A DNA stretch of 43,792 nucleotides, from the NCBI GenBank assembly GCA_947258975.1, contig CAMYKK010000018.1, positions 1 through 43,792 on the forward strand, read 5' to 3'. The notes beneath the pieces are model-generated. The model had not been told where the DNA came from. It did not search any database and saw nothing but the letters and a program-made list of their open reading frames with translations. Numbering within the stretch: position 1 is the stretch's first letter; each line of letters begins with the position of its first letter. This DNA comes from an uncultured Gammaproteobacteria bacterium (lineage in GTDB: Bacteria; Pseudomonadota; Gammaproteobacteria; Arenicellales; JAANXG01). Shown piece after piece: positions 26,846-41,374 of this stretch. The position numbers and the translations under genes are program-made.

Positions 26846-29800
26846 CTACTCATCGATCAAGATCTCGTGCCACGAGGTGCGCGTCCCCGGCTCCCCGGTC
26901 AGATTGATCTCTTCCCGTCCGGTGGCGAGGGTGCTGCCGCTCCAGCGGAGGCTTACGATGCTCTTGCCGGACCCACTGCCCTCGTGGAACCCCGGCTCCA
27001 TGGCCCGCCCGGCCGTGGTCTTCGTGCGCGTCCCGGCCCAACCGAAATCATCCACCAGTGACGGTGCCAGCGGGTCAGGATGCCCGGTGCCGGTCTTGTA
27101 GTACACGATGTTGACGGCGCTCTCGCCCAGGGGCTCGCACAGCTCCTCGGAGGGGGTGAAATCGGCATAGGCCAATACCCCACCGGTCACTGCGGCCCGG
27201 CTCACGTTCCGGGTGCTGGGAATATCGCCACCCGCCTGCACCAATTCGTGCAACCAGCCGGCTTTATTGTCCTCGATGTACTCCTCCAGTTCCTTGAAGG
27301 TTTCGATAGTTTCGGTGCCAAACACGACATTGCCGCCGCTGCTCTTGAGTTTGATCACGCCGTCGCCATCGTTGTCATCGTCGACTGCGACGTTTATGTC
27401 CGACACGTCGAGCAGGTCGTCGCGGTCCACCTCCGCGTAGTTGATGTTGCCGCTGTTATTGACCGGTTCCTTGATGCCGTAGAAGGACTGCTGATGGTCG
27501 CTGAGCTTGTCGTCCTTGGCCTCGTAACGCCCGGTGCCCGCATATACCCAGATGCGGTTGTTGTCGTCGCGGCTGAGCGTTGGCGCATTCAAGAACGCCT
27601 GATTGGGGCGCTGGTCTGTCGCATCTGACGCATCGTCGGGATCGAGCAACAGCTTGAGGCTATTGGGGGGGTTCGCCGCGCCGTTGATCCGCTTCCAACG
27701 GTAGAGCCTGCCGGCCGGCACGTCCGGATCGCCGCTGGTGACGCCGAAATACCAGGCGTCGGTGCGGTATTTCTCGTTCTCGAGAAAGTTGTCGGCGGGT
27801 TGAAAGATGTCGAAGTCGGCGCCGGTGACATCGCCCACGAAACTGTTGGTGATGAACGCGACGTCGTCGGGATCGGGACTGGCGCCAAAGGCGTCGGCCA
27901 GATCCACCGGCCAGCCGTTGCGCATCTTCTTCGCCTTGAGATTGTAGTTGAACAGGTGGGCCGATTGGGTGCTGGTGTAATTGCTGAGATCGGTCGGCCC
28001 GGAGCCGAAGGCCAGAAACCACGTGTTAATCTCCTTCGTATCCGTGCTGTCGCGGCGAAAGATGATGTCCGGCGTGCTGGTGGTGAAACCGAGCTTGCCG
28101 TCCGGGTCGGCCGTGGTTCCGGTATCGACAATCTCCGCCAGCAACTTCGGCGGATCTTCCGGATTAGTGATGTCCATCACCACATAGGCCGAGCGCATGA
28201 CCAAGGTATCGGTGGCCGGGTCCTGATCGTGATCGATCTCGAAGGGGCCGCCGCCCAGGCGCATGCCGACCACCAGCACCGTGCCCCAGCCACCGGGATG
28301 CACGCTGTCGTCGGCGAAGATCTTGGCGTCAAACGCCTGGGGCTTGCCGTCGACGTAGTACACGTGGGAATAGCTCGGGTCCGCCAGCCATTGCAGATGC
28401 GGCAGCAGGTTCATCGGCGCGTAGGCCCACAGTTCGGAGCCGAGCGGATGCGTTCCCTCGCTTGACGGGGCGGTGGTCTTGTACTCACGGCTGGCCTCGT
28501 CGAAAAAACCGCCGTTAAAGGCCTGGATGAGGCCGCCGTTGCTGCCTGTGATGACGACCAGCCGGCGGTCTTTGTATTGGTCCTTGTAATCCCCGTAGGT
28601 GGGATCGCCCTGGATGATGTCGAAATTATCCATGGGTGGGCCCACCGCCAGCGGCGGCGAGTGCACGATGTCCGCAATCCGCCAGGTTTCCAAGCCATTG
28701 CCGAAATCGGCGGTGCGGTTGCGAAAGCCGGTGATGGTGTCGTCACCGCGAACGAAGTTGACGATATTCTCCGCCTCGGCCTGGCTGGCGACGCCGAAGA
28801 AGCCGAAATTGGTCGTTGTGACCGAGCTTGCCGTGAAGTCGTGGATCTCCGCGGGATCTTGGACCGTGCCATTGGGTTCGTTGCCCGCGTCCATCCACGT
28901 CAAGATGTGACGGCCGGCTGATGCCGGCGTGTCATAGCTGCGCTGGGTGGTGACGTCGGTCAGTTTCTTGAGTTCTTCACCGGCACTCCAGAGGGGTTCG
29001 AATAGTTCGAGAGCGACTTTCGTGTTATTTCCGGTTCCCACGAACTCATCGTCTTCCGCGCTTTCAAAACGTATCAGCTTGGTGGTTTCGGTAGTCGGGT
29101 CGTACTCGAACTCAACGACCTGGTCGGTCTGATAGCCTTCCAGGACCCCTTTCTGGCCGCTGTCCTCGCGCAGCAGGCCGAAATCGTCGATGAAGATCGC
29201 CTTGACGTCCCCGATCCAGCGCACCGTGTTGAAGTTCGCGTCTTGATATTCCGGTTGATACTGGGCCTGGAACGCGGCGCCAAATCCTACCGAGCTGCTG
29301 GAGACCACCGCCGCCGCCGCACCGGATGCCGGTGATTTGGATAACAGGTCCTCGAACACGCGGGTGATGGAGTTGACCAGCTGGGTTGGATTGCTCACCA
29401 GGAAATATTTATCGGGGACCCCGTCCGGCGTGTTGTCGGTGGGATCGAAATTGTTCTTTTCGTCCCACTCTTCCTGTAGATCCGGCACCGGGGTAGCGCC
29501 GCCGTTCAGGTTCTTGAATGACCCCCACTTGGCGGCGTAATACAGCGGCAGCTCGAGGATGCCGGCGATCTCATTGCCGATGTCATAGGTGTGCGAGCTT
29601 GCGGGGATGGGAACACCCGCCGGAAGCGGCGCGTCCAAATCCGGCCCAAATCCGACGACGCTGGAGGGGGCGCCGCAGAACGACGGGTTGTCGTCATTGG
29701 GGCACCCCGGCACCCCGGTGGCATCGGTCTGCGCCACGCCGCTACCGCCGGCGCGGTCGGGATACCGGAAATCATTGATACCCGAATGGGCGTGAAAGCC

Positions 29801-32017
29801 GTCTTGATTGACGGTACCGGCGATGACGTAGCCAAAGCCCATCGGGTGCGGGGTCGATTTCGCATGCACGTCGGTGGTGACGGTGATCTCGTTGGTGGCG
29901 GTGTCCACCGCGTATTCGATGGTGCCCCACATGTCCTGGTCGTAATCGCCGCCGGCCTCGCTGTCTTCCCAGTTGACGTAGAATTTGCCGCTGGTCGTGC
30001 TCTGGCTGACGACCTTGAAGTCGACCAGCGTGCAGCTGCCTTGAGGGTCACCGAACGAGGTGATCGGATTGTAATTGACGCAGGCCGGCAGTATCCCCAC
30101 GACACTGTCGCTGTTGGGCACGTTGACGATGATACGCGGTGTGGAAGGCGACAAGGTGACGCCGTAGGTGTCGATCACCTGGTTGCCGTCGATCCCGGTG
30201 TACTGATCGGTGATATGCGCCTCGTAGGCCAGGCCGGAGATCTTGTAGGAGCCGCCGACCCGCGGCGCCTCGGGGCAGATGCCGGCGGCGTCGGCAAAGT
30301 CGCTGATGGTCTTGCTGGTGCACAACTGGTTGTTGTCGACGCCGTTCTCACCGATGAAAAAATCGTTGCCGCTGATACCTTCTTGCAATGAGTTACCGAT
30401 CGCGTTTGTGCGGTTTGTCGCGGCGGTGTCCATATCTGGCATATCTGGTAACGTGCCGCTGTCTTTGGACGCGTAACTGGCGTTGAAGCTGACGATGTTC
30501 AGCGTGGCGCAGGCGTTGTCCTCGGTGATGAGGCCGGAGTTATCCCACGACGCGGTGGTGAGCCCGTGGATGTAGTCGTTGTCATCGGCTTGATAAGCGG
30601 CGATGCGGCTGCTCTTACCGCTCAGGTAGCGGATGCCTTCCAAGAAGATCTCCGTCTGCGGATTGCCCCAGTTGCTGCACTGGCCCTCCGGAAAGTTGCT
30701 CAGCCCGAACGTGCACTGGTCGCCGCCGTCCGTCAAGCTGTCGAGATAATGACCGCGCCGGAAATTGTACCCATAGATGCGGAAGGTGTTGAGGGTCTTG
30801 ATGATGCCGTCCGCATTCAAAAACTGACCGCTCGTGACGCTGATCTCGTCATCGATGGAGACCACGTTCTTGCGCAGCACCCCGCCGGACAGGTTCTTCT
30901 CATAACTGCCGGTGACCAAGCCGAAGCGAATGCTGTTGTCGCCGCCGAAATCTTGCAGCAGTCCCGCCGGTTTGAGGATGGGGGCGCCCGACCCGGGATA
31001 CGAGCGGCAATTCTCGGTGCCGATCAGATCGTCGACACAGGCGCGCACGCGGACGATGAAGTCCGGTCCGGCGCCGCCCGACAGCGCCAACCCGTCTCCG
31101 CCGCTTGCCACGGAATCTTTCGATGGCGGGTTGCTATGGGCAAAGATGCCGGACAGCGCGGGGACGTTGGCATTGGTGGCGGAGCTTTGTTCTTGGCTCC
31201 AACGGCACTGCCAGCGCTCGTTGCCGTTCCACAAAGAGAAGTTCCCCTGCGCAACCCGCATCAGCGGTGGGTAGCTGTTGGTGTTGACGTCCTGGGAATA
31301 GAGATCACTGCCGGGATTGCCGACATGCGTGGTGTTGCAGATGGTAATCCCCTGGTCTTCCGCCGCCGGTGGGCTGCTGGAACCGGCGTGGGGCGGATCG
31401 AACGGCGTGAGCTTCGCGATATCGGGCCCGTTGTAGTACTTTGCCGAGCTGTGGGCGTCGTTGGGCAGAAACACGCGCTCGAGTACGGTCAGAGCCGGAT
31501 CGTCGTCGTCGGTGTGGCGTTTGCCGCCGTATAACACCTTGCGCACGATATCCATGCGGTGCATGGCGGCCCAGTTGAGAAAGTTGCCGCTCCAATCGCC
31601 GCTGACCGCGTCGCAGTACTTGTCGGTGGTTTCCGCCTGCGGTTCGAAATAGCCGCTGCCGTTGTACGAATAACACTTGGCGTAATCGAAATACCCGTAG
31701 TAATCGATGGCATGGTTGTAGGTAAGATCGAGGGCCCCATCGCCATTTAAGTCCGAATAATCGTCGTAGGCCTTGTAATAGAGCTGATGGTCGTTGGACA
31801 AGGTCAACATCGCCAATGGCGGCGCGGAAAACGCGCTGTCTATGGGGGTCGCGAAAAAATCGGCCATTGATTCGCCGGCGGCGTGGGCAAGCTGGCTGCC
31901 CGCAAACGGCGCCAACGCCATGGATGCCGCAACCGCGCCCAGGACGATGCCCGAGATGCCGGAAGCCAGCCGGTTGTGAATCGCTGTCCGCTTGGAGAAT
32001 GTTGCTGTGATTTTCAT
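26846..32017 (-). CDS. pilY1: PilY1 pilus-tip adhesin
   Basis: A 1723-residue secreted protein with a Sec signal peptide (residues 1-about 43). The N-terminal half is variable, with a calcium-binding-like loop DLNGDGALDL near residue 69; the C-terminal half (from about residue 980) is the conserved PilC/PilY1 beta-propeller (VVITGSNGGLIQAFNGG, ELWAYAPMNLLPHLQWLADP, YYVDGKPQAFDAKIF, PGGWGTVLVVGMRLGGG). A DDDNDGDGVI loop near residue 1540 is another candidate calcium site. PilY1 sits at the pilus tip, promotes pilus extension and mediates adhesion and surface sensing. It lies between pilX and pilE, as in Pseudomonas. It is longer than P. aeruginosa PilY1 (about 1160 residues). Confidence 0.93.
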   Translation of the reverse strand: MKITATFSKRTAIHNRLASGISGIVLGAVAASMALAPFAGSQLAHAAGESMADFFATPIDSAFSAPPLAMLTLSNDHQLYYKAYDDYSDLNGDGALDLTYNHAIDYYGYFDYAKCYSYNGSGYFEPQAETTDKYCDAVSGDWSGNFLNWAAMHRMDIVRKVLYGGKRHTDDDDPALTVLERVFLPNDAHSSAKYYNGPDIAKLTPFDPPHAGSSSPPAAEDQGITICNTTHVGNPGSDLYSQDVNTNSYPPLMRVAQGNFSLWNGNERWQCRWSQEQSSATNANVPALSGIFAHSNPPSKDSVASGGDGLALSGGAGPDFIVRVRACVDDLIGTENCRSYPGSGAPILKPAGLLQDFGGDNSIRFGLVTGSYEKNLSGGVLRKNVVSIDDEISVTSGQFLNADGIIKTLNTFRIYGYNFRRGHYLDSLTDGGDQCTFGLSNFPEGQCSNWGNPQTEIFLEGIRYLSGKSSRIAAYQADDNDYIHGLTTASWDNSGLITEDNACATLNIVSFNASYASKDSGTLPDMPDMDTAATNRTNAIGNSLQEGISGNDFFIGENGVDNNQLCTSKTISDFADAAGICPEAPRVGGSYKISGLAYEAHITDQYTGIDGNQVIDTYGVTLSPSTPRIIVNVPNSDSVVGILPACVNYNPITSFGDPQGSCTLVDFKVVSQSTTSGKFYVNWEDSEAGGDYDQDMWGTIEYAVDTATNEITVTTDVHAKSTPHPMGFGYVIAGTVNQDGFHAHSGINDFRYPDRAGGSGVAQTDATGVPGCPNDDNPSFCGAPSSVVGFGPDLDAPLPAGVPIPASSHTYDIGNEIAGILELPLYYAAKWGSFKNLNGGATPVPDLQEEWDEKNNFDPTDNTPDGVPDKYFLVSNPTQLVNSITRVFEDLLSKSPASGAAAAVVSSSSVGFGAAFQAQYQPEYQDANFNTVRWIGDVKAIFIDDFGLLREDSGQKGVLEGYQTDQVVEFEYDPTTETTKLIRFESAEDDEFVGTGNNTKVALELFEPLWSAGEELKKLTDVTTQRSYDTPASAGRHILTWMDAGNEPNGTVQDPAEIHDFTASSVTTTNFGFFGVASQAEAENIVNFVRGDDTITGFRNRTADFGNGLETWRIADIVHSPPLAVGPPMDNFDIIQGDPTYGDYKDQYKDRRLVVITGSNGGLIQAFNGGFFDEASREYKTTAPSSEGTHPLGSELWAYAPMNLLPHLQWLADPSYSHVYYVDGKPQAFDAKIFADDSVHPGGWGTVLVVGMRLGGGPFEIDHDQDPATDTLVMRSAYVVMDITNPEDPPKLLAEIVDTGTTADPDGKLGFTTSTPDIIFRRDSTDTKEINTWFLAFGSGPTDLSNYTSTQSAHLFNYNLKAKKMRNGWPVDLADAFGASPDPDDVAFITNSFVGDVTGADFDIFQPADNFLENEKYRTDAWYFGVTSGDPDVPAGRLYRWKRINGAANPPNSLKLLLDPDDASDATDQRPNQAFLNAPTLSRDDNNRIWVYAGTGRYEAKDDKLSDHQQSFYGIKEPVNNSGNINYAEVDRDDLLDVSDINVAVDDDNDGDGVIKLKSSGGNVVFGTETIETFKELEEYIEDNKAGWLHELVQAGGDIPSTRNVSRAAVTGGVLAYADFTPSEELCEPLGESAVNIVYYKTGTGHPDPLAPSLVDDFGWAGTRTKTTAGRAMEPGFHEGSGSGKSIVSLRWSGSTLATGREEINLTGEPGTRTSWHEILIDE

Positions 32018-32051
32018 AGCACTACCCACCTAGTTGATCTGTGTTACCTGT

Positions 32052-32660
32052 TCAGCAGCGCCCGTTGCGTTTGCGATACGTGCTCTGCAGGCGTATCCGG
32101 GCGACGTTACTGCGTCCTGCCGCCTGTGACGTAATCCGGTATTTGTCGAACTTGACCGCGGTGCCCAGTTCCTCGCCGGGGACCGTGGGATCGCATGCAA
32201 TATCGTTGTACTCGATGATGTACTTCGGCACGGCGGCCAGATTCGGCACCAAGGCATTTTTATAGTCTGTGCCGCCGGTAAATTCGCCGAAATCCCGTGT
32301 GAGCGATGCACTGTCCCAATTAATGGTTTCCCAAACCGGGGGATCGGCAGTGGAAGCGGGCGGCAGGCACAGGCCATTGGTGCACGATGTGTCGAAGTTG
32401 GTGCCTGCGGTCATGTTGTTCTCCACGTCGATCTCGGCGTCGCGAAGCCCCGACTCTCCGGCCTGGAAGGCGTAGTTGCGGTCGAGCATGTTGCGCGCCA
32501 TCACTTCCTGCAGGTTGCCCGACGACATCGACGTTACGCCGATGATGGTCAACATCAACAGCATAATGAGCGCGACCGCCATCACCACGCCTTGCTGGCG
32601 CCGCGGTCCGATGATTGGCTTGGCCGGTTGACGCCGGCGCGTGTTGGATCTCGTATTCAT
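32052..32660 (-). CDS. pilX: Minor pilin-like protein PilX
   Basis: A 202-residue protein with the PilX N-terminal feature: QQGVVMAVALIMLLMLTIIGV, a membrane helix after a basic leader with Gly-Val at the cleavage position and no Glu5, as in PilX. The remainder is a soluble head with AFQAGESGLRDAE. The ATG at 32660 overlaps the pilW stop (ATGA), which fixes the start; the open frame further upstream overlaps pilW. Confidence 0.85.
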   Translation of the reverse strand: MNTRSNTRRRQPAKPIIGPRRQQGVVMAVALIMLLMLTIIGVTSMSSGNLQEVMARNMLDRNYAFQAGESGLRDAEIDVENNMTAGTNFDTSCTNGLCLPPASTADPPVWETINWDSASLTRDFGEFTGGTDYKNALVPNLAAVPKYIIEYNDIACDPTVPGEELGTAVKFDKYRITSQAAGRSNVARIRLQSTYRKRNGRC

Positions 32661-33439
32661 AGCAGTCGATTCCGCAGTTGCACGGTGGCTTGGAACTGCC
32701 GGTCGGGACGGTTCGCAACTTGCTCCTTGGCCTTGGCGGCGAGGGTTTCGTCCCCCGCTTCCACGGTTACCAGCACCCGCAGCGCGAGGACACTCGGCCA
32801 CTCCGCCGCGTCGGGCAGTTTGTCCGACGACGATTCGTGATCGGTGTAGCGGATGGTGCCGGCGCCGGTGAGGATGCCGTAATCAAGCTTGAGGTCACTG
32901 ACGCCTTGGATCAGAGGTTGGGGGTCATTACCGCGGCTTCCGCAATACAGCGACAAAGGGTCGCCGGCAGCTGCGCGTCCCACAAAGAAGGTTGCCGTGA
33001 CGGCTTCGTTCTTGACCAGTACGCCGCCGGCGCAGTCCCTGAGCCCGGCGTACGGCGCGGTGTATTTCACATGGATGGCATAGGAGCCGGGTTCCAAGGT
33101 TATGCCGGTGCCCAGATCGGCGTTGCCCGCGAATCCGACGCCGCAGTCCGTGCCCGCGATGCAACCGTCCACCGCGTCGGTGATGGGCTGCAGCAACGCC
33201 AGCTGCTCGTCCTCATTGTCCGGCCGGTAATCGGCAAGCCGCAGGTAGCGGGTCAAGATGTCCGTTGAAAAGCGGGCGTTCTCCTGGGTGCGCGACATGG
33301 CCTCGTTGGTGTTGTAGCTGGTCTTGCCGGCGATATACATGCCCACCAAACCGGTGATCAGAAACATGCCGATGGCGATCGCAACCATCAGCTCGGCGAT
33401 CGAGAAACCGCGCTGCGGCATCCGTTGCGTGCGGCTCAT
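32657..33439 (-). CDS. pilW: Minor pilin-like protein PilW
   Basis: A 260-residue prepilin: leader ending PQRG, then FSIAELMVAIAIGMFLITGL with the Glu of the pilin motif, TGLVGMYIAGKTSY and the PilW-type RTQENARFSTDILTRYLRLA. It belongs to the priming complex of the pilus. ATG at 33439 overlaps the pilV stop (ATGA). Confidence 0.88.
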   Translation of the reverse strand: MSRTQRMPQRGFSIAELMVAIAIGMFLITGLVGMYIAGKTSYNTNEAMSRTQENARFSTDILTRYLRLADYRPDNEDEQLALLQPITDAVDGCIAGTDCGVGFAGNADLGTGITLEPGSYAIHVKYTAPYAGLRDCAGGVLVKNEAVTATFFVGRAAAGDPLSLYCGSRGNDPQPLIQGVSDLKLDYGILTGAGTIRYTDHESSSDKLPDAAEWPSVLALRVLVTVEAGDETLAAKAKEQVANRPDRQFQATVQLRNRLL

Positions 33440-33987
33440 GGCGAGAACTCCAAGCGAAAACACGTCAACCCGGTGCCGGTGAGGGTGTCGTCGCACTCCT
33501 GTGCGATCTTTTCTTTTTCCCCGGAGTCGAGCGTGCCCTGGAGACTGGTGCCGATCTCCAACCAGCCGACGTCGATCTGGAAGATGGGCGCGGTGAGGGT
33601 CGCCGCAACCGCGAGGACGGTGACCGCACCTTCACCGCTCGGCAGTTTTTCGGCAAGCTCATCGGACCACTGGTCGCCATCGATGGCTGCCAACTGGGCA
33701 GCGGTGCACCCGGCGGCAAGACAGGTACTGTCCACGCTGCCGGAGACCGGCAGGCTGTCATAGGCACCGGCGCGAATCCCGGCCAGGTTGGCGCGCATGC
33801 GGTCGGCCATGTCGTAGGCCTGGACCATGGCGATGGAGCGGTTGAAGGACTTGTTGTTACCTTGCAGGGTCACCCCCTGCAGCGTCGCCAGGCCTAGAAG
33901 GCCGATCGACAGCACGAAAAACGACACCAGCACCTCGAGCAGCGTGTAGCCGGTCTGGTTTTGGCGCTGGTCAACAGGGTGGGTCAT
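33436..33987 (-). CDS. pilV: Minor pilin-like protein PilV
   Basis: 183 residues: leader to TG, then YTLLEVLVSFFVLSIGLLGL with Glu5, followed by ATLQGVTLQGNNKSFNRSIA and AYDMADRMRAN, all PilV features. Residue +1 is Tyr instead of Phe. ATG at 33987 shares a base with the fimT stop (TAATG). Confidence 0.88.
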   Translation of the reverse strand: MTHPVDQRQNQTGYTLLEVLVSFFVLSIGLLGLATLQGVTLQGNNKSFNRSIAMVQAYDMADRMRANLAGIRAGAYDSLPVSGSVDSTCLAAGCTAAQLAAIDGDQWSDELAEKLPSGEGAVTVLAVAATLTAPIFQIDVGWLEIGTSLQGTLDSGEKEKIAQECDDTLTGTGLTCFRLEFSP

Positions 33988-34469
33988 TAGTCGCACTCGA
34001 TGGTGGTGTGAGTGGTGTGGCCGACTACCGTGATCTCAATGCGGCGGCCGGATTTTTCCGGATCGCATAGCCGAAACACTTCGGCATCAGTAGTCAGAAA
34101 CCCGTTCGAATTGAACGTGACGATGTTCACATTGTTGACACTGCTGTCGAGCGCGAGTGACCCGGGTAGGGAAGGTGCTTCGCGCAGCGTCGTCGGCGTG
34201 GCGAGTAAGTCGATGATCCCCCAGCCTGCGCCCCACTCATTGGCGTTGTCGCTGGCGTCGGTGGCACGCAGGGAGACGTTGTGGTTGCGTCGAACCGCTT
34301 CGGTGCGGGTCTGTTGCACCGCGGCGATAAATTCGTTGGATTGCGTGGCCAGCCGGTTGCGGCGCACGAAGTCACGAAAGTTCGGAACCGCCAAGGCCAT
34401 GAGTACCCCCACTATGCTGATCACGATCATCAGTTCGATCAAGGTGAATCCTTTAATGTGCGCTCGCAT
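33987..34469 (-). CDS. fimT: FimT/GspH-like minor pilin
   Basis: First gene of the operon, 160 residues. A 7-residue leader (MRAHIKG) precedes FTLIELMIVISIVGVLMALA and the GspH-type FRDFVRRNRLATQSNEFIAAVQQTRTEAVRR. The family shows pilins needed for assembly and, in some members, DNA binding. Two further in-frame ATGs lie upstream (34490, 34502); 34469 is chosen because it gives the usual short leader. Confidence 0.85.
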   Translation of the reverse strand: MRAHIKGFTLIELMIVISIVGVLMALAVPNFRDFVRRNRLATQSNEFIAAVQQTRTEAVRRNHNVSLRATDASDNANEWGAGWGIIDLLATPTTLREAPSLPGSLALDSSVNNVNIVTFNSNGFLTTDAEVFRLCDPEKSGRRIEITVVGHTTHTTIECD

Positions 34470-34503
34470 CTGATTTCTCGCCCTATGCATACAAGCTAGC
34501 ACA

Positions 34504-34809: not shown

Positions 34810-35253
34810 ATGGGCATGAAATTTCAAATGATGCAACCCGCACAGATCACTGAGCTGCTGCGTAGACGCCAGATTACGCCGACTTCGCAGCGGGTGAAGA
34901 TCGCCGGCACCTTATTCGCCGGACCCGCGCACTTCTGCGCAGAGGACGTGTATGCGCGCGTGAACGAGGACGATGCCGAGGTCTCCAAGGCCACGGTTTA
35001 CAACACCTTGGGTCTGTTCGTGGCCAAGGGACTGGTGCGGCAGGTGTTCGTTGAACCGGGCAAGGTCTTCTACGATTCCAACACCCAACCGCATCATCAT
35101 TTCTACGATAGCGGCACCGGTGAACTCACGGACATCGATGCCGTGGGTGTGGCGTTGCACGAACTGCCGCCATTGCCGGCAGACACCGAACTTGACGGCG
35201 TGGATGTCATCGTACGCATCAGACAGCGGCAGTCCAAGGATCGGCCGGCCTGA
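34810..35253 (+). CDS. Fur-superfamily transcriptional regulator (Irr/PerR-like)
   Basis: A 147-residue regulator with the Fur winged helix: ITPTSQRVKIAGTLFAGPAH, FCAEDVYARVNEDDAEVSKATVYNTLGLFVAKGLVRQVFV. The dimerisation part has HHHFYDSGTGELTDID. The histidine triplet is the metal/haem-linked site seen in Irr/PerR branches; the CxxC zinc pairs of Fur are missing, and only one Cys is visible. So iron, haem or peroxide sensing is likely, but the ligand cannot be read. No Shine-Dalgarno precedes ATG 34810, and the promoter lies directly before it, so the mRNA may be leaderless; ATGs at 34816 and 34828 are alternatives. Next, downstream, is tRNA-Thr. Confidence 0.88.
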   Translation: MGMKFQMMQPAQITELLRRRQITPTSQRVKIAGTLFAGPAHFCAEDVYARVNEDDAEVSKATVYNTLGLFVAKGLVRQVFVEPGKVFYDSNTQPHHHFYDSGTGELTDIDAVGVALHELPPLPADTELDGVDVIVRIRQRQSKDRPA

Positions 35254-35615: not shown

Positions 35616-36287
35616 TTAGTGGCGACCCACGCGCATTGTGGAGCGGCGAGTCTCATAATACGTTGCCAGCTTGTCGACCTCCTCGCCGGCGAGCAAGTCG
35701 GTCATGGCGTACATCATGGCGTTTTCGCGCATATGCTTGCTCTGAAAATCACGCATCTCGTGGGCGAGATACTCCCGTCTTTGTCCCGCTAAGATCGGGT
35801 ACTGTTGAATGGCATCTTTATTGAATTCGTTCGGTTCGTGGCACCGGTCGCATTTCTCAACCAACTCGGTCAGCTTTTGATCCAGGTTGACAGAAGATCC
35901 GCCGTCGGTGTTCGAACGCTTGACCTGTCCCTGAGCCCAGTAGTATGCGGCGGTGTCTTCGATTGCGGATTCACTGAGAGGCCTTACTACCGCGTGCATG
36001 CCGGGATTGTTTCGGGTGTTGTCACGAAATGCCCGCAACTGAATCATCAAGTAGCCCCTGCGTTGCCCGGCGAGATGTGGGACATAACGGGTGTCACTGA
36101 CGCCGTCCTCACCGTGACAGGTTGCGCACTGCGCGACGACCTGCGGCATGGGAGGTTTCCCCGTCTCCGTCGTTGCGGAGGATGCGGTCTCCTGCCCGGT
36201 GGGGGCCGTGTTCGCGCCACGGGTCAGCTGCCCATAGAAAATTGAGATCGCGGCCGTTAATCCGATTATCCATGCCATAGTCTTCAT
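35616..36287 (-). CDS. Dihaem cytochrome c (c4-like repeats)
   Basis: 223 residues with an N-terminal signal/anchor segment (MKTMAWIIGLTAAISIFYG). Two haem sites follow, CATCH near residue 54 and CDRCH near 146, each with a C-terminal Met-containing helix region typical of cytochrome c4 (HLAGQRRGYLMIQLRAFRDN and ILAGQRREYLAHEMRDFQ). GGAG lies 9 bases before the ATG. It is a periplasmic electron carrier. It follows, on the same strand, the tetrahaem lipoprotein and the large c-b fusion, with a gap of 374 bases in front. Confidence 0.88.
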   Translation of the reverse strand: MKTMAWIIGLTAAISIFYGQLTRGANTAPTGQETASSATTETGKPPMPQVVAQCATCHGEDGVSDTRYVPHLAGQRRGYLMIQLRAFRDNTRNNPGMHAVVRPLSESAIEDTAAYYWAQGQVKRSNTDGGSSVNLDQKLTELVEKCDRCHEPNEFNKDAIQQYPILAGQRREYLAHEMRDFQSKHMRENAMMYAMTDLLAGEEVDKLATYYETRRSTMRVGRH

Positions 36288-36661: not shown

Positions 36662-37774
36662 TTATCTTGGGTCCTGATTGGCATACAGGGAAGCGACACT
36701 TTCTATGATGGCCTCACTGTAGGGTAAGCTCATGTTGTGCATCAGCGAACTGCCGCGTTTGCCGTCGCGATATGCCCGCAATGCCCTAATCAGGTAGTCT
36801 CTATTCTGTCCGTGGATCTTCGGAATCGCCATCGCGGGATTGTCGATACCGGGAGCGTGACAACGGTCGCATTTTGCGGACAACTCGCGCACCGTTATGG
36901 GACCGGATTCCGCTGCTTGGGATTCTTGCGTTGCGTAAAACGCGGCGATGTCGGCGATTTCCTGATCGGTGTTGTCATCGAGCATGATGTCGTGGACCCG
37001 GGTCTGGTCCCGGTAGGATTTGATGGCGCTCACCAGATATTGTGCATCCTGTCCCGCAAGCGTCGGCGTCGTGGCGTCGTGGCTCACCCCCTTAGCGCCA
37101 TGGCAACCGCCACAGCGGGCGGTAAGCGGCTCGCCGGCAACCGGGTTGCCGACCGCAGGTCTGCCGCGTCGGACCGGGGTCTGGGATGCGTAATAGATGG
37201 CCAGGTTTTCCATCTCAATCTTGCTCATTCCACGCAGCATGGTTTCCATGGTGGCGATGTTGCGTGTGCCATGCAGATAGGCCTGCAGGGCGGACACGAA
37301 ATAACGCGGTTGCTGGCCCGCCAGACTCGGCATCCCAGGTGCGGTGGCATTGCCGTCTGCGCCGTGGCATCTGGCACAGGACTCGCTCGCCGCCTTACCC
37401 CGTTCATAGGGCGACAGCGTGAAGTCTTTTTTATCCGTCAGTGCCTCGAGCCGCGGCAGGGTGGAGTAAAAGGCGACGATATCGTGCATCTCTTGCGTGC
37501 GCAATTGTTTCGCCATATCGCGCAGTGCGGCGTGGGTGCGTTTTCCCTCTCTGTAAGCGAGCAAAGATGCGTACAGATACCCATCCACCTGTGCCGCCAA
37601 ATGCGGAATACCGGGCGCAACCCCTTTGCCGTCCAGCCCATGGCATCCCGCGCAGTGGGCCGCGGCCAAAGCCTTGCCGGCGTTGACATCGGGTTGCACA
37701 GTTTTTGTTTCTTGTTCGTCGGCGCAACCGGCCAACAGCAGTGATAAGCAGGCAAATAAAGCAAGATGTTTCAT
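36662..37774 (-). CDS. Tetrahaem c-type cytochrome lipoprotein (four c4-like repeats)
   Basis: 370 residues. The signal peptide ends LLLAGC, a lipobox, so the protein is probably an outer-membrane or periplasm-facing lipoprotein. Four CxxCH sites follow (CAGCH, CARCH, CGGCH, CDRCH), one in each repeat of about 90 residues; each repeat has the motif HLA/SLAGQxxYxxxxLxAYxxGxR and ends in a Met-containing helix as a sixth ligand candidate (repeat 1 MAKQL, 2 MLRGM, 4 MHNMS). That is a tandem duplication of the c4 unit, twice that of the dihaem protein downstream. The start at 37774 gives a proper lipoprotein signal; the frame extends 29 codons upstream without one. RBS GAGG lies upstream. Confidence 0.88.
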   Translation of the reverse strand: MKHLALFACLSLLLAGCADEQETKTVQPDVNAGKALAAAHCAGCHGLDGKGVAPGIPHLAAQVDGYLYASLLAYREGKRTHAALRDMAKQLRTQEMHDIVAFYSTLPRLEALTDKKDFTLSPYERGKAASESCARCHGADGNATAPGMPSLAGQQPRYFVSALQAYLHGTRNIATMETMLRGMSKIEMENLAIYYASQTPVRRGRPAVGNPVAGEPLTARCGGCHGAKGVSHDATTPTLAGQDAQYLVSAIKSYRDQTRVHDIMLDDNTDQEIADIAAFYATQESQAAESGPITVRELSAKCDRCHAPGIDNPAMAIPKIHGQNRDYLIRALRAYRDGKRGSSLMHNMSLPYSEAIIESVASLYANQDPR

Positions 37775-38012
37775 TGAATAACCTCGAGGTTCAAACATGC
37801 CGCATGACAATCCATAACTCGAACCCAACTTTGAAAAATTGTGTTGAGCGTCGATCATCATCGCACAACGAAAGAGCGTGTCGCAATAACTTCATCAGCC
37901 GCCGCCGGCCACTGCGGTAACCCTCCAACTTCGTCTCGCACTGCGTTCGATAGGTTGATTTCCGCCACTCGGTAGCCCGGTAATTCTCCAGCAGTCAGCC
38001 AAGGATTAGGGA
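37775..38012. other. Short gap between c-b fusion and tetrahaem lipoprotein
   Basis: About 240 bases with no protein-like frame, no recognised repeat and no clear terminator. The two genes are read in the same direction and could share a transcript. Confidence 0.35.
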
Positions 38013-40007
38013 TCATGCCATCACCACATTCTCCCAGAAGCCAACCAAGACCAAGACCAGCAGCGTCAGCCCGACGAGGATCAGGGTGGCGCCTAAAATC
38101 TTGGACCCAAGCGTCATGGGCCGCGACGGCGCGTCCACCAGGTAATTTTCCAGTTCGCCGCGTTCCAGTAAGCGCTGGTATTCCAGGGTGTGTTCGTGCT
38201 TGTATTCCTCCAGCGGCATCACGCCGGTGAACATAACGATGTCCTGTGGCAGTTTATCCGGCCGGAAATGGACATTGAAGAAATGCACCGAGAACAAGAA
38301 CACTGCAGCCAGGAACGCCTCCTCGCCGTGCACGATGGTCGCCACATTGAACACCCAGCCGGGCAACACCGAGGCGGTTACCGACGGAAACCACAGCATA
38401 GCGCCGCTGATGCCGATGATCGCCATGCCCCAGAAGGGTGCCCAGTAGTCAAATTTCTCCCAATAAGCCCAGCGGTCAAACACCGGGCGCGGCGCCAAGC
38501 CGAAGAACCACTTGAACATGGCCGCCGCTTGATTGAGGTCATCGAGATTGGGCACCAGGGAATTAGGGCCAAACCACTTCCACGTGTTACGGGTTTTAAT
38601 GATGTGATAGGCAAAGAAAATCAAGTGTCCGAAAAACAAGGTGATGAAGGTCAGCGCCGCCATGCGGTGCAGCAGCGCCGCAATTTTCGGTCCGCCGATC
38701 GATTTCATGACCGTCTGTGCCCAGGCACTCTCCGCGAACAGCGCAGAGGTGCCCGTGAGTACCAACGTCATCACCGCCAGCGCCAGCAACAGATGCGAGA
38801 TTCGCCATGCTAGGCTCCAGCGCTTGATGTACCGCCCGCTCGCGTCGGGCAGTTTATCCGTTTGAATATGGGGCGCGCTCTTGCCTTCCTTGCGGTCTTT
38901 GTATTCGCGGTAAAACCATAGTGCGGAGTGCAACCAAAAGAAGGCAAATACCCCGGCCAGCAGCCCGATCATGAATTTGGATGCGATCCACATAAACGGA
39001 TAACGGCTGAAGTCGGCGGTATTGCCGTGTGGGTGAAAGCTTACGAATCCCTTCGTCGCGTTCGCGTGGCACGTGCGGCAGGTTTCCAGGCGGTTGTCTA
39101 GATGCATCCTCGACGCCTCGTCATTCACCCGCTGAATCTGGTGATGTCCATGGCAGTCGTAGCATTTTGCGGTGTAGGCATAACCCAGTGTGGTAACTTG
39201 CCCATGATACGTGCCGGTATAGGTTTTCAGTTGTTGGCCATGGCAGTTTCCACAATTAGCGGTTATGGTCAGTTTGGTCGTATCGAGTCCGGGCGATTCG
39301 ATTTCATGGGTTGTGTGGCAATCGACGCAAACGGCGGCATTCGGATTGCGTTCCTGCGTTACTTCCCTCCCGTGCACCGATGTCATGTAAGTCTTTGCCA
39401 CGTCTGCGTGACACTTTCCGCACACCTCGGGTATCTGTAATCGAAAATCCCAACGGGCCTTGGTACCCAGGGGCGCGAAGGTGTGGGGATTATGACAATC
39501 GGAACAATACGCGTTGGGTTCAGCGAGGTCTTGCTTGCTGGGCCGCGCATGAACGGAGCCCATGTAGCTCTTGATCTTGTCAACCACCACATCGACCCGT
39601 TTGTATTCCTTCACTCCGTTCTCGTTTTGCGTCGCCATCGTGTCTAGATGACAGTTCAAGCAGTTCACGGCGTCTCTTTTCTCGTTTCTACGGTGCGGAA
39701 TTTGCACGATGTCCCAGTGGCAATCCACGCAAGCACGCCGCGAGTGCACGCTTTGTTTGAACAATTCCGGCGAGACATATAGCTTGCGCATGGACTGCTT
39801 ACCGGGCTCTCCCGTGGGAACACCAAAACCCTCGTAACCATGACATCCCAAGCACAGCTCATTCTTGGGTTTCGCATCACGGCTTCCGGCTGCCGCGTCG
39901 CCACGTAGACCTACCTGGGCTTGGGCGTCCGCCAACCAGCCGTCCGGTGCCGCCGCCAGCGCGATGACACAGGCAAGAATCCATACTGTTGATCTCGAAA
40001 TACGCAT
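38013..40007 (-). CDS. Nonahaem c / cytochrome b fusion, CbcL-like quinone oxidoreductase
   Basis: 664 residues. A signal peptide (1-about 30) is followed by a periplasmic domain with nine CxxCH haem sites (CLGCH, CVDCH, CLNCH, CSDCH, CGKCH, CVDCH, CGNCH, CYDCH, CRTCH; about 30-320), many with further His residues nearby for bis-His ligation (HTFAP, HGREV, HGQVTT, HGHH). The C-terminal part has six hydrophobic helices with His in the expected places for two b haems (RISHLLLALAV, LLHRMAALTF, GHLIFFAYHI, VHGEEAFLAAV, VHFFNVHF), the HydC/FdnI cytochrome b561 fold. The same layout, nine c haems plus diheme b, is that of Geobacter CbcL, which moves electrons between menaquinone and periplasmic carriers. 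The lipoprotein and dihaem cytochromes on the same strand would be partners. Homology is judged by layout only. Confidence 0.85.
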   Translation of the reverse strand: MRISRSTVWILACVIALAAAPDGWLADAQAQVGLRGDAAAGSRDAKPKNELCLGCHGYEGFGVPTGEPGKQSMRKLYVSPELFKQSVHSRRACVDCHWDIVQIPHRRNEKRDAVNCLNCHLDTMATQNENGVKEYKRVDVVVDKIKSYMGSVHARPSKQDLAEPNAYCSDCHNPHTFAPLGTKARWDFRLQIPEVCGKCHADVAKTYMTSVHGREVTQERNPNAAVCVDCHTTHEIESPGLDTTKLTITANCGNCHGQQLKTYTGTYHGQVTTLGYAYTAKCYDCHGHHQIQRVNDEASRMHLDNRLETCRTCHANATKGFVSFHPHGNTADFSRYPFMWIASKFMIGLLAGVFAFFWLHSALWFYREYKDRKEGKSAPHIQTDKLPDASGRYIKRWSLAWRISHLLLALAVMTLVLTGTSALFAESAWAQTVMKSIGGPKIAALLHRMAALTFITLFFGHLIFFAYHIIKTRNTWKWFGPNSLVPNLDDLNQAAAMFKWFFGLAPRPVFDRWAYWEKFDYWAPFWGMAIIGISGAMLWFPSVTASVLPGWVFNVATIVHGEEAFLAAVFLFSVHFFNVHFRPDKLPQDIVMFTGVMPLEEYKHEHTLEYQRLLERGELENYLVDAPSRPMTLGSKILGATLILVGLTLLVLVLVGFWENVVMA

Positions 40008-40615: not shown

Positions 40616-41374
40616 TTACTGCGGAGTCAGCAGGTCGTCGGTCCCCGTCAGCTCACGTGCCGTCAGCAACGGATCTAAGCTTTCGGCCTCAACTAGGGGG
40701 TGCTTGTCGCGAGCCAGGGCGCCGCGCACCTCGAGGTTGCGGCGGAGGACATTGAAGATCAAGTTACGACGGGCCGTTGGGCCGCTCTCGTTTTTCGAGC
40801 TTTGCCAGAGCAGGTCAATCACCCGCAAGCTGGTGTCGCTGTCGGGGGGGGAGTGTGTGGGCTGGAAGAACAGGACCGGAAAATACACGCGGGCGTTGTT
40901 GACGTCCACGTGATTGGCCAGATAATGTAATCCACGGTGGACGCTGCACGCGCCGTGCAGTTCCTCAATGCCGAGAGTTAGCGGTAACGAGTCCACTACG
41001 TTGCCCTGTTGTTTGGCATCTTGATCCAGGCGTATGGCGTCAATGGTCTTGTTATGCACCATCAGTGTTGCGGATTGCCACTCGTGATTGTTGTCGTCGA
41101 CGGGAAGGATATAGCCGAGCTCCATACCATTTTCGGCGCTGTGCAAATAAACATGAGACAGTTCCTGCAGGTCGCGCAGGAATACCTCCAGTTCGGAAAC
41201 AAAGGTGGGGTGCTTGCGCATGAACTTGCGATCATGCAACTGTGGAAATGTCTCTTTGACGGGTTTGGAGTCCGCGGGGCGAATGAAACCTAAATCCGCA
41301 TTGCGATTGATGAAATAGAATCCTTGGACACCCGGATAACGCCGCACGAAGCGGGATACTGATTCGGGGGACAT
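40616..41374 (-). CDS. Conserved-looking protein of unknown function
   Basis: 252 residues, soluble, no signal peptide or membrane helix, two Cys at most. It contains short hydrophobic blocks (GVQGFYFINRNADLGFI, HVYLHSAENGMELGYILP, SATLMVHNKTIDAIRL, ARVYFPVLFFQP) in an alpha/beta-like pattern, which argues for a real protein. I recognise no family. It ends 608 bases upstream of the cytochrome fusion and is read in the same direction, so a link to that cluster is possible but not shown. Confidence 0.6.
   Translation of the reverse strand: MSPESVSRFVRRYPGVQGFYFINRNADLGFIRPADSKPVKETFPQLHDRKFMRKHPTFVSELEVFLRDLQELSHVYLHSAENGMELGYILPVDDNNHEWQSATLMVHNKTIDAIRLDQDAKQQGNVVDSLPLTLGIEELHGACSVHRGLHYLANHVDVNNARVYFPVLFFQPTHSPPDSDTSLRVIDLLWQSSKNESGPTARRNLIFNVLRRNLEVRGALARDKHPLVEAESLDPLLTARELTGTDDLLTPQ

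Follow-up and report, generated by a model that had tools for sequence, protein, structure and literature searches.

Genes at the locus and the multihaem fusion

The 43,792-nucleotide stretch of DNA analysed here as a whole (the window), from an uncultured gammaproteobacterium, carries a same-strand block of cytochrome genes with the following members and near neighbours:

34810..35253, forward strand: Fur-family, Irr-like iron-response regulator, convergent neighbour (PF01475)
35616..36287, reverse strand: dihaem c4-like cytochrome, third member of the block (Pfam PF13442/PF00034)
36662..37774, reverse strand: tetrahaem c4-like cytochrome, predicted lipoprotein (three stretches matching PF00034, four CxxCH, lipobox)
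38013..40007, reverse strand: nonahaem c / dihaem b fusion of 664 residues (CxxCH count, Pfam/NCBIfam, invariant ligands, AlphaFold2 model, HHalign)
40616..41374, reverse strand: 252-residue protein, upstream of the fusion (no Pfam or NCBIfam match at E 0.1)

Elsewhere in the window, a minor pilin cluster (26846-34502, reverse strand; GspH, N_methyl/Tt1218-like, PilW and PilX by Pfam) ends in a protein of 1727 residues that is PilY1-like by eye and has no Pfam match.

The open frame of the fusion runs from an ATG at 40007 to a TGA stop, and an alternative TTG start 63 nt upstream would lengthen the product to 685 residues. Judged by eye, the N-terminus resembles a signal peptide of the Sec type. 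Nine CxxCH motifs are found at residues 52, 93, 116, 168, 196, 227, 252, 282 and 310; Pfam assigns c7/c3-type multihaem domains to the N-terminal half and a cytochrome b561 domain (PF01292) to residues 396-577 (whole-protein E 5.4e-8), and NCBIfam, under cut-off in both cases, likens the haem half to DmsE/MtrA-type decahaem cytochromes and the membrane half to the gamma subunit of formate dehydrogenase. Across 63 aligned sequences, the window's among them, all nine motifs are invariant, and so are nine additional histidines of the haem domain (88, 105, 153, 175, 212, 234, 268, 289 and 327). Since every haem motif is kept across these 63 sequences, the pattern goes beyond chance. A looser alignment of 79 rows, some of them truncated, retains Cys52, Cys55 and His56 at 0.96, His105 at 0.99 and the remainder at 1.00; these counts, like the 79-row tree discussed below, leave out L059 and L077 (<580 residues). 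The fusion is predicted to bind nine c haems, probably with bis-histidine ligation, in a domain that is probably periplasmic.

The AlphaFold2 model, computed from 63 aligned sequences, has a mean pLDDT of 81.7 and shows six long helices in the C-terminal half (337-373, 399-423, 440-471, 515-539, 551-580 and 629-662). Five histidines of the membrane domain (405, 447, 560, 575 and 580) are invariant in the 63 sequences. The best structural match of this domain is FdnI of Escherichia coli (1kqf_C; Z 14.0, rmsd 2.9, 204 aligned), a score to be read against the Z of about 13 that helical folds can reach through their common arrangement alone, and the second is a hydrogenase cytochrome b (Z 10.1). 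The same genome encodes two formate dehydrogenase gamma subunits with which the b domain was aligned by HHalign (probability 75, E 2.4e-5); His405, His447, His560 and His575 fell in register with histidines of these subunits, as read by eye from the alignment. These four residues probably ligate two b haems, which would bring the predicted total to eleven haems, nine c and two b. The preliminary description of this locus had reported nine CxxCH motifs and a six-helix b domain in a single 664-residue protein, which motif count, Pfam and AlphaFold2 confirm; it had also made its reading depend on conserved b-haem histidines, and the five invariant residues bear it out on this point.

Searches of the PDB gave only weak multihaem matches, 28pb_A being the best both with the single fusion sequence (E 3.4e-4) and with a profile (E 3.7e-8), and nothing relevant with the membrane domain alone. 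Foldseek returned no match to the whole model at E 0.001, the top entry being hydroxylamine oxidoreductase at E 0.05. A likeness of residues 77-330 to hydrazine dehydrogenase (VIA-align Z 5.7) was too weak for use. A nine-haem gene on contig C39 of the same genome (L094:8045-10106) was considered as a second copy of the fusion and rejected, as the separate b561 that accompanies it has no match to the fusion b domain and scores best, under cut-off, with PhsC; the two nine-haem c domains are 29.5% identical over 200 residues (E 1e-17). This nine-haem protein and its PhsC-like b561 adjoin genes that resemble sensor kinases and response regulators.

Family placement and distribution

A multihaem c domain followed by an FdnI/HydC-like membrane domain, six helices in the AlphaFold2 model and conserved b-haem histidines are all found in the fusion, which fits as a member of the published CbcL/MtrH/MtoC family of quinone oxidoreductases. 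In the available part of the text, the family was defined by Zhong and Shi (2018; PMC6295460) on 138 homologues, 103 of them proteobacterial, having 3-23 CxxCH motifs, mostly six helices and an FdnI/HydC-like membrane domain; its members are portrayed as gates for extracellular electron transfer at the inner membrane, and in that same part no feature was found to distinguish quinol oxidation from quinone reduction. The CbcL-type layout proposed in the preliminary description thus holds at the level of the family (domain order, six helices), but the nearer branch is probably not Geobacter CbcL, to which it likened the protein. According to identities given in the accessible text (PMC6295460), CbcL shares 35.4-35.7% with MtrH and two MtoCs, which are mutually 55-59% identical. 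In L083, a Rhodoferax record whose homologue shares 51% identity with the window protein, the fusion has beside it a decahaem gene (TIGR03507) and, as labelled by eye, two CymA-like genes, a setting similar to the one published for mtrH of R. ferrireducens (PMC6295460, same portion). The genus and gene setting of L083, taken with the published identities, support a place for the window protein on the MtrH/MtoC side.

The fusion is present in seven of 100 genomes around the window's own, namely in all six of the genus, in one of seven others of the same taxonomic family and in none of the 87 in the rest of the order. In an even class sample, 25 of 369 genomes, the window's own among the 25, have a homologue, and this frequency, together with the proteobacterial majority among the published homologues, runs against regarding a CbcL-type protein as unusual in a gammaproteobacterium. 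The relatives compared below are the nearest 80 of at least 592 matches and stem mostly from metagenome-assembled genomes (MAGs), so that counts out of 80 give no rate for the family as a whole. All 78 loci that were placed with the window on a tree, from these best 80 of at least 592, are Pseudomonadota. Among the matches listed, the relatives that follow next after L009-L011 come from records titled Gammaproteobacteria, Kiloniellales and Rhodospirillales, taxa that hint at horizontal transfer of the fusion; tblastn gave no plasmid-borne match in 72,556 plasmid records at E 1e-20.

The c4-like partners, other neighbours and the Mtr conduit

As the preliminary description had it, the fusion shares a strand block with two c4-like cytochromes, here a tetrahaem and a dihaem protein. 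The open frame of the tetrahaem gene begins at 37861, and its conserved and probable start, which yields a lipoprotein signal with the box LLAGC, is at 37774, 238 bp past the fusion stop. Because of this gap, co-transcription of the two genes is not certain; a scan for terminators found five, as against 5.4 in shuffled sequences, and hence no excess. A comparison of gene neighbourhoods, also proposed earlier, revealed a c4-type match on the same strand and at most 600 bp downstream of the fusion at 37 of the best 80 of at least 592 loci. Thirty-five of these match the tetrahaem query and two the dihaem (L011 owes its label to its dihaem), and among the c4-negative loci six contigs end too soon. 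The dihaem gene is kept downstream in L009 and L010 and adjoins the fusion in L011.

The aligned c4 partners have four CxxCH motifs in 32 of 34 cases and three in the other two. A lipobox cysteine is found in all 34 copies, window included (31 by the strict pattern), and residue +2 is aspartate in only two; by the +2 sorting rule of E. coli lipoproteins, most of these partners would therefore go to the outer membrane. The tetrahaem c4 of the window is probably a lipoprotein on the inner face of that membrane. Candidate axial methionines of the c4 haems are partly conserved (0.62-0.91 at the scored columns). Fusion and c4 gene distances correlate (Spearman 0.72, 33 rows, species kinship not corrected for), and rows with the plain c4 label, 28 of the 79, cluster on the tree, with nine changes as against 23.4 in shuffles and none of 500 shuffles as low, a low count to which near copies contribute. 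The best NCBIfam model for both c4-like genes is PdsA (NF049874), and their scores of 112.5 bits (tetrahaem) and 55.4 bits (dihaem) lie far under the 330-bit cut-off, so that neither counts as PdsA.

Other neighbours are rarer. On the 79-row tree (window and 78 loci from the best 80 of at least 592), the c4 label applies to 37 rows, of which 28 are plain, seven have Mtr genes in addition and two NrfD; the remaining rows show Mtr genes only (8), a histidine kinase directly downstream (7), an HAO-like octahaem gene (6), NrfD without an adjacent c4 (3), none of the genes sought (13) or a contig end (5). NrfD, the kinase and the HAO-like protein were rejected as main partner of the fusion, each being less frequent than c4 among these rows. 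The c4 gene is not required by the family, since elsewhere different genes, or none of those looked for, adjoin the fusion; Thiocapsa roseopersicina, for one, has a homologue with no c4 gene next to it. The octahaem HAO-like gene stands directly upstream of the fusion in L051, L055, L057, L058 and L065 (with PF13447 in the L057 copy), and the match ends 11-34 bp before the fusion start in records of Marithrix, Thiomargarita, Methylomonas and SZUA-229; such pairs perhaps represent an HAO-type enzyme coupled to the quinone pool. Close to the window's own block, the Irr-like regulator (IrrA 124.1 bits, under the cut-off of 150) is kept in L009 and L010 and may be linked to the fusion/c4 module. 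The 252-residue upstream protein, kept in seven of seven loci (L003-L007, L009 and L010) at 47-68% identity, is a conserved near neighbour and at most a candidate member of the module.

In the window's genome, no MtrB/PioB porin (PF11854) is found over cut-off (best E 0.0035), and MtrA-type TIGR03508 is over cut-off in none of the six genus genomes (best 104.8 bits against 192.2), each of which has weaker multihaem matches to this model; the combination of MtrB/PioB and MtrA that would mark an Mtr/Mto module is thus missing among the matches over cut-off. L014, the nearest locus on the tree after L009-L011 (best 80 of at least 592) and 66% identical, encodes on one strand, in this order, TIGR03507 (MtrC type), TIGR03508 (MtrA), TIGR03509 (MtrB), the fusion and c4. 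Among genomes from the best 80 of at least 592, an MtrB porin occurs in 24 of 36 with a c4-partnered copy (36 of the 37 c4-labelled loci, L040 being left out), in none of four HAO-partnered genomes, in one of four Chromatiaceae and in six of six labelled for Mtr. Within the nine-row clade of the window, L013 and L014 come from genomes with MtrB, which was not found in the genomes of L009, L010, L011, L012, L015, L025 and the window.

The even class sample contains MtrB in 28 of 369 genomes: in four of the 25 with a fusion homologue and in 24 of the 344 without (Fisher p 0.11, the overlap being counted by eye from two lists and the two draws taken as the same 369 genomes by their agreeing handles), which leaves 21 of 25 homologue-bearing genomes with no MtrB match. 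Fusion and MtrB are strongly associated among the near relatives, a biased set; the even class sample leaves the link unproven. A simple history would be that the fusion and c4 form the inner half of an Mtr-type chain and that the window's lineage carries the pair without the outer half. PdsA, NetBCD, MtoC and MtoD are described, in the accessible portion of PMC8805035, as modular companions of mtrCAB, which fits an exchange of chain parts.

The same genome holds further multihaem genes. Contig C17 (L118:1563-4884) has a Net/Nrf-like module in which a heptahaem protein with four multihaem motifs and three c4-type domains is accompanied by an FeS protein and NrfD; the three are 41, 75 and 63% identical, respectively, to proteins beside fusion relatives. 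Contig C18 (L115:9128-14554, about 127-133 kb) encodes, about 87 kb from the fusion, a predicted protein of 1808 residues that has 30 CxxCH motifs and repeats rich in TP; three trihaem c7 proteins and a c4-type dihaem are encoded nearby. On contig C1 (L097:6115-8361), a gene of the octahaem tetrathionate reductase family (TIGR04315 over cut-off) adjoins a b561 gene.

Electron flow and comparison with known systems

Geobacter CbcL is linked to menaquinone, and the preliminary description invoked this linkage, with its low-potential reading, for the fusion. The genus genomes do not support it: UbiG is over cut-off in six of six and MenB and MqnA in none of six, the lower MenB matches looking like ordinary enoyl-CoA hydratases, and the Rieske protein of bc1 is over cut-off in all six. 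The genus therefore appears to use ubiquinone, with bc1, and a CbcL-style menaquinone route is unlikely; judged on biosynthesis genes only, the fusion does not qualify as a menaquinone-working CbcL. As MAGs are incomplete (96.03% for the window's own genome), a missing gene may be an assembly gap, which is less likely for six genomes jointly.

We favour, with a probability of about 55%, the reading that the fusion is an inner-membrane quinone oxidoreductase of the MtrH/MtoC type that passes electrons from ubiquinol through its b and c haems to the adjacent c4 lipoprotein across the periplasm. Ubiquinol would probably be oxidised at the FdnI-like membrane domain, from which electrons would move via the two b haems (probable ligands as above) to the periplasmic chain of nine c haems and on to the adjacent, lipid-anchored tetrahaem c4, the dihaem c4-like protein being a possible mobile shuttle. 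In relatives with MtrCAB, the c4 lipoprotein would connect to this complex; here, where no MtrB-type porin is over cut-off, the acceptor would be some other periplasmic or surface cytochrome or a terminal oxidase. Haems of the c4 type usually lie above ubiquinone in potential, and flow from quinol to c4 would therefore be downhill; we infer this direction, which is the weakest step of the proposal. The preliminary description had suggested a route from quinone to periplasm other than bc1 or NapC, and layout, ligands and the HHalign comparison with formate dehydrogenase gamma subunits make such a route likely; it would be separate from bc1 and, given the Rieske protein of all six genus genomes, an addition to it and not a substitute. 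More speculatively, the fusion and the tetrahaem c4 might form a two-piece bridge from ubiquinol to a c4 chain held at the outer membrane, serving MtrCAB in relatives and here another surface acceptor, perhaps the 30-haem and trihaem c7 proteins, which are candidates by their presence on the same contig only.

Two other readings are distinctly less probable than this outward flow from ubiquinol to c4. Electrons could run in reverse, as in Mto-type uptake, from outside or periplasmic donors through the fusion to ubiquinone, with the c4 cytochromes passing part of them to an oxidase. Flow from c4 to ubiquinone would be uphill at the potentials given above, and the window's genome has no MtrB, nor the genus any MtrA, over cut-off; the relatives nevertheless include Gallionella, Thiocapsa, Sulfuricaulis and many Betaproteobacteria records (among the matches listed), L014 has MtrC, MtrA and MtrB models over cut-off beside its fusion, and reverse flow was proposed, in the portions of these papers available, for the nonahaem MtoC of Gallionella ES-2 (PMC5566968) and a similar mto operon of Dechloromonas (PMC6295460). 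The other reading, equally doubtful, is a bypass of bc1 within the periplasm, in which electrons from ubiquinol would pass the nonahaem protein and c4 and end at a terminal oxidase or at a soluble reductase of the periplasm, with no surface contact. Cytochromes of the c4 type serve cbb3 oxidases in other bacteria, and neither MtrB nor MtrA being over cut-off agrees with such a bypass, as do the 21 of 25 class genomes in which a homologue occurs with no MtrB match; yet it would lose energy in a genus that has bc1, and the lipid anchor of c4, with aspartate +2 so rare, fits the outer membrane better. A true CbcL, i.e., a menaquinol dehydrogenase for metal reduction at low redox potential, shares with the window protein the order of nine CxxCH motifs and six-helix b domain published in the accessible text of PMC6295460 and is nonetheless very improbable, in view of the quinone genes, the MtrH/MtoC side on which the protein probably falls and the lack of an MtrB-type conduit over cut-off in the window's genome (by Mtr-type profile, Geobacter-type porins lying outside it).

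The earlier suggestion of a small undescribed respiratory module stands in part. The quinone protein has already been described, and the variant part is its pairing with a c4 lipoprotein and its setting; a literature search of shallow coverage, outside which Figure 5 of PMC6295460 (neighbouring cytochrome genes) lies, found no description of the recurrent pairing of the fusion with a c4 tetrahaem lipoprotein. Here the "gate" of the family is accompanied by a c4 lipoprotein, and the quinone genes of the genus indicate ubiquinone. The label "CbcL, metal reduction" may be misleading for such genes in other Proteobacteria as well. We also would point out that the c4 lipoprotein offers a specific candidate, open to testing, for the partner in the periplasm.

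Among known systems, PdsA, the periplasmic dihaem shuttle of Mtr gene clusters, is the best-scoring model for the window's c4-like genes and, in the available part of PMC8805035, occurs beside mtrCAB and a quinol dehydrogenase; unlike PdsA, the main partner in the window has four haems and a lipid anchor, and no mtrCAB was seen. The fold of the fusion membrane domain is shared with FdnI, the gamma subunit of E. coli formate dehydrogenase N (1kqf). Unlike FdnI, the window protein joins this domain to a nine-haem domain, and its helices 337-373 and 629-662 fall outside the matched stretch (389-621). Differently from the menaquinone-linked CbcL of Geobacter sulfurreducens, it belongs to a genus with neither MenB nor MqnA over cut-off. 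In both proteins, six helices with an FdnI/HydC-like b domain come after nine c haem motifs (PMC6295460, in the part available). With MtrH of Rhodoferax ferrireducens and MtoC of Gallionella capsiferriformans ES-2 and Dechloromonas aromatica, the window protein has in common the layout, the six helices and the FdnI-like b domain, and MtoC of ES-2 is likewise nonahaem according to the accessible text of PMC5566968. Unlike these MtrH/MtoC systems, the window's genome has neither MtrB nor MtrA over cut-off, and the partner of the fusion is a c4-like tetrahaem lipoprotein.
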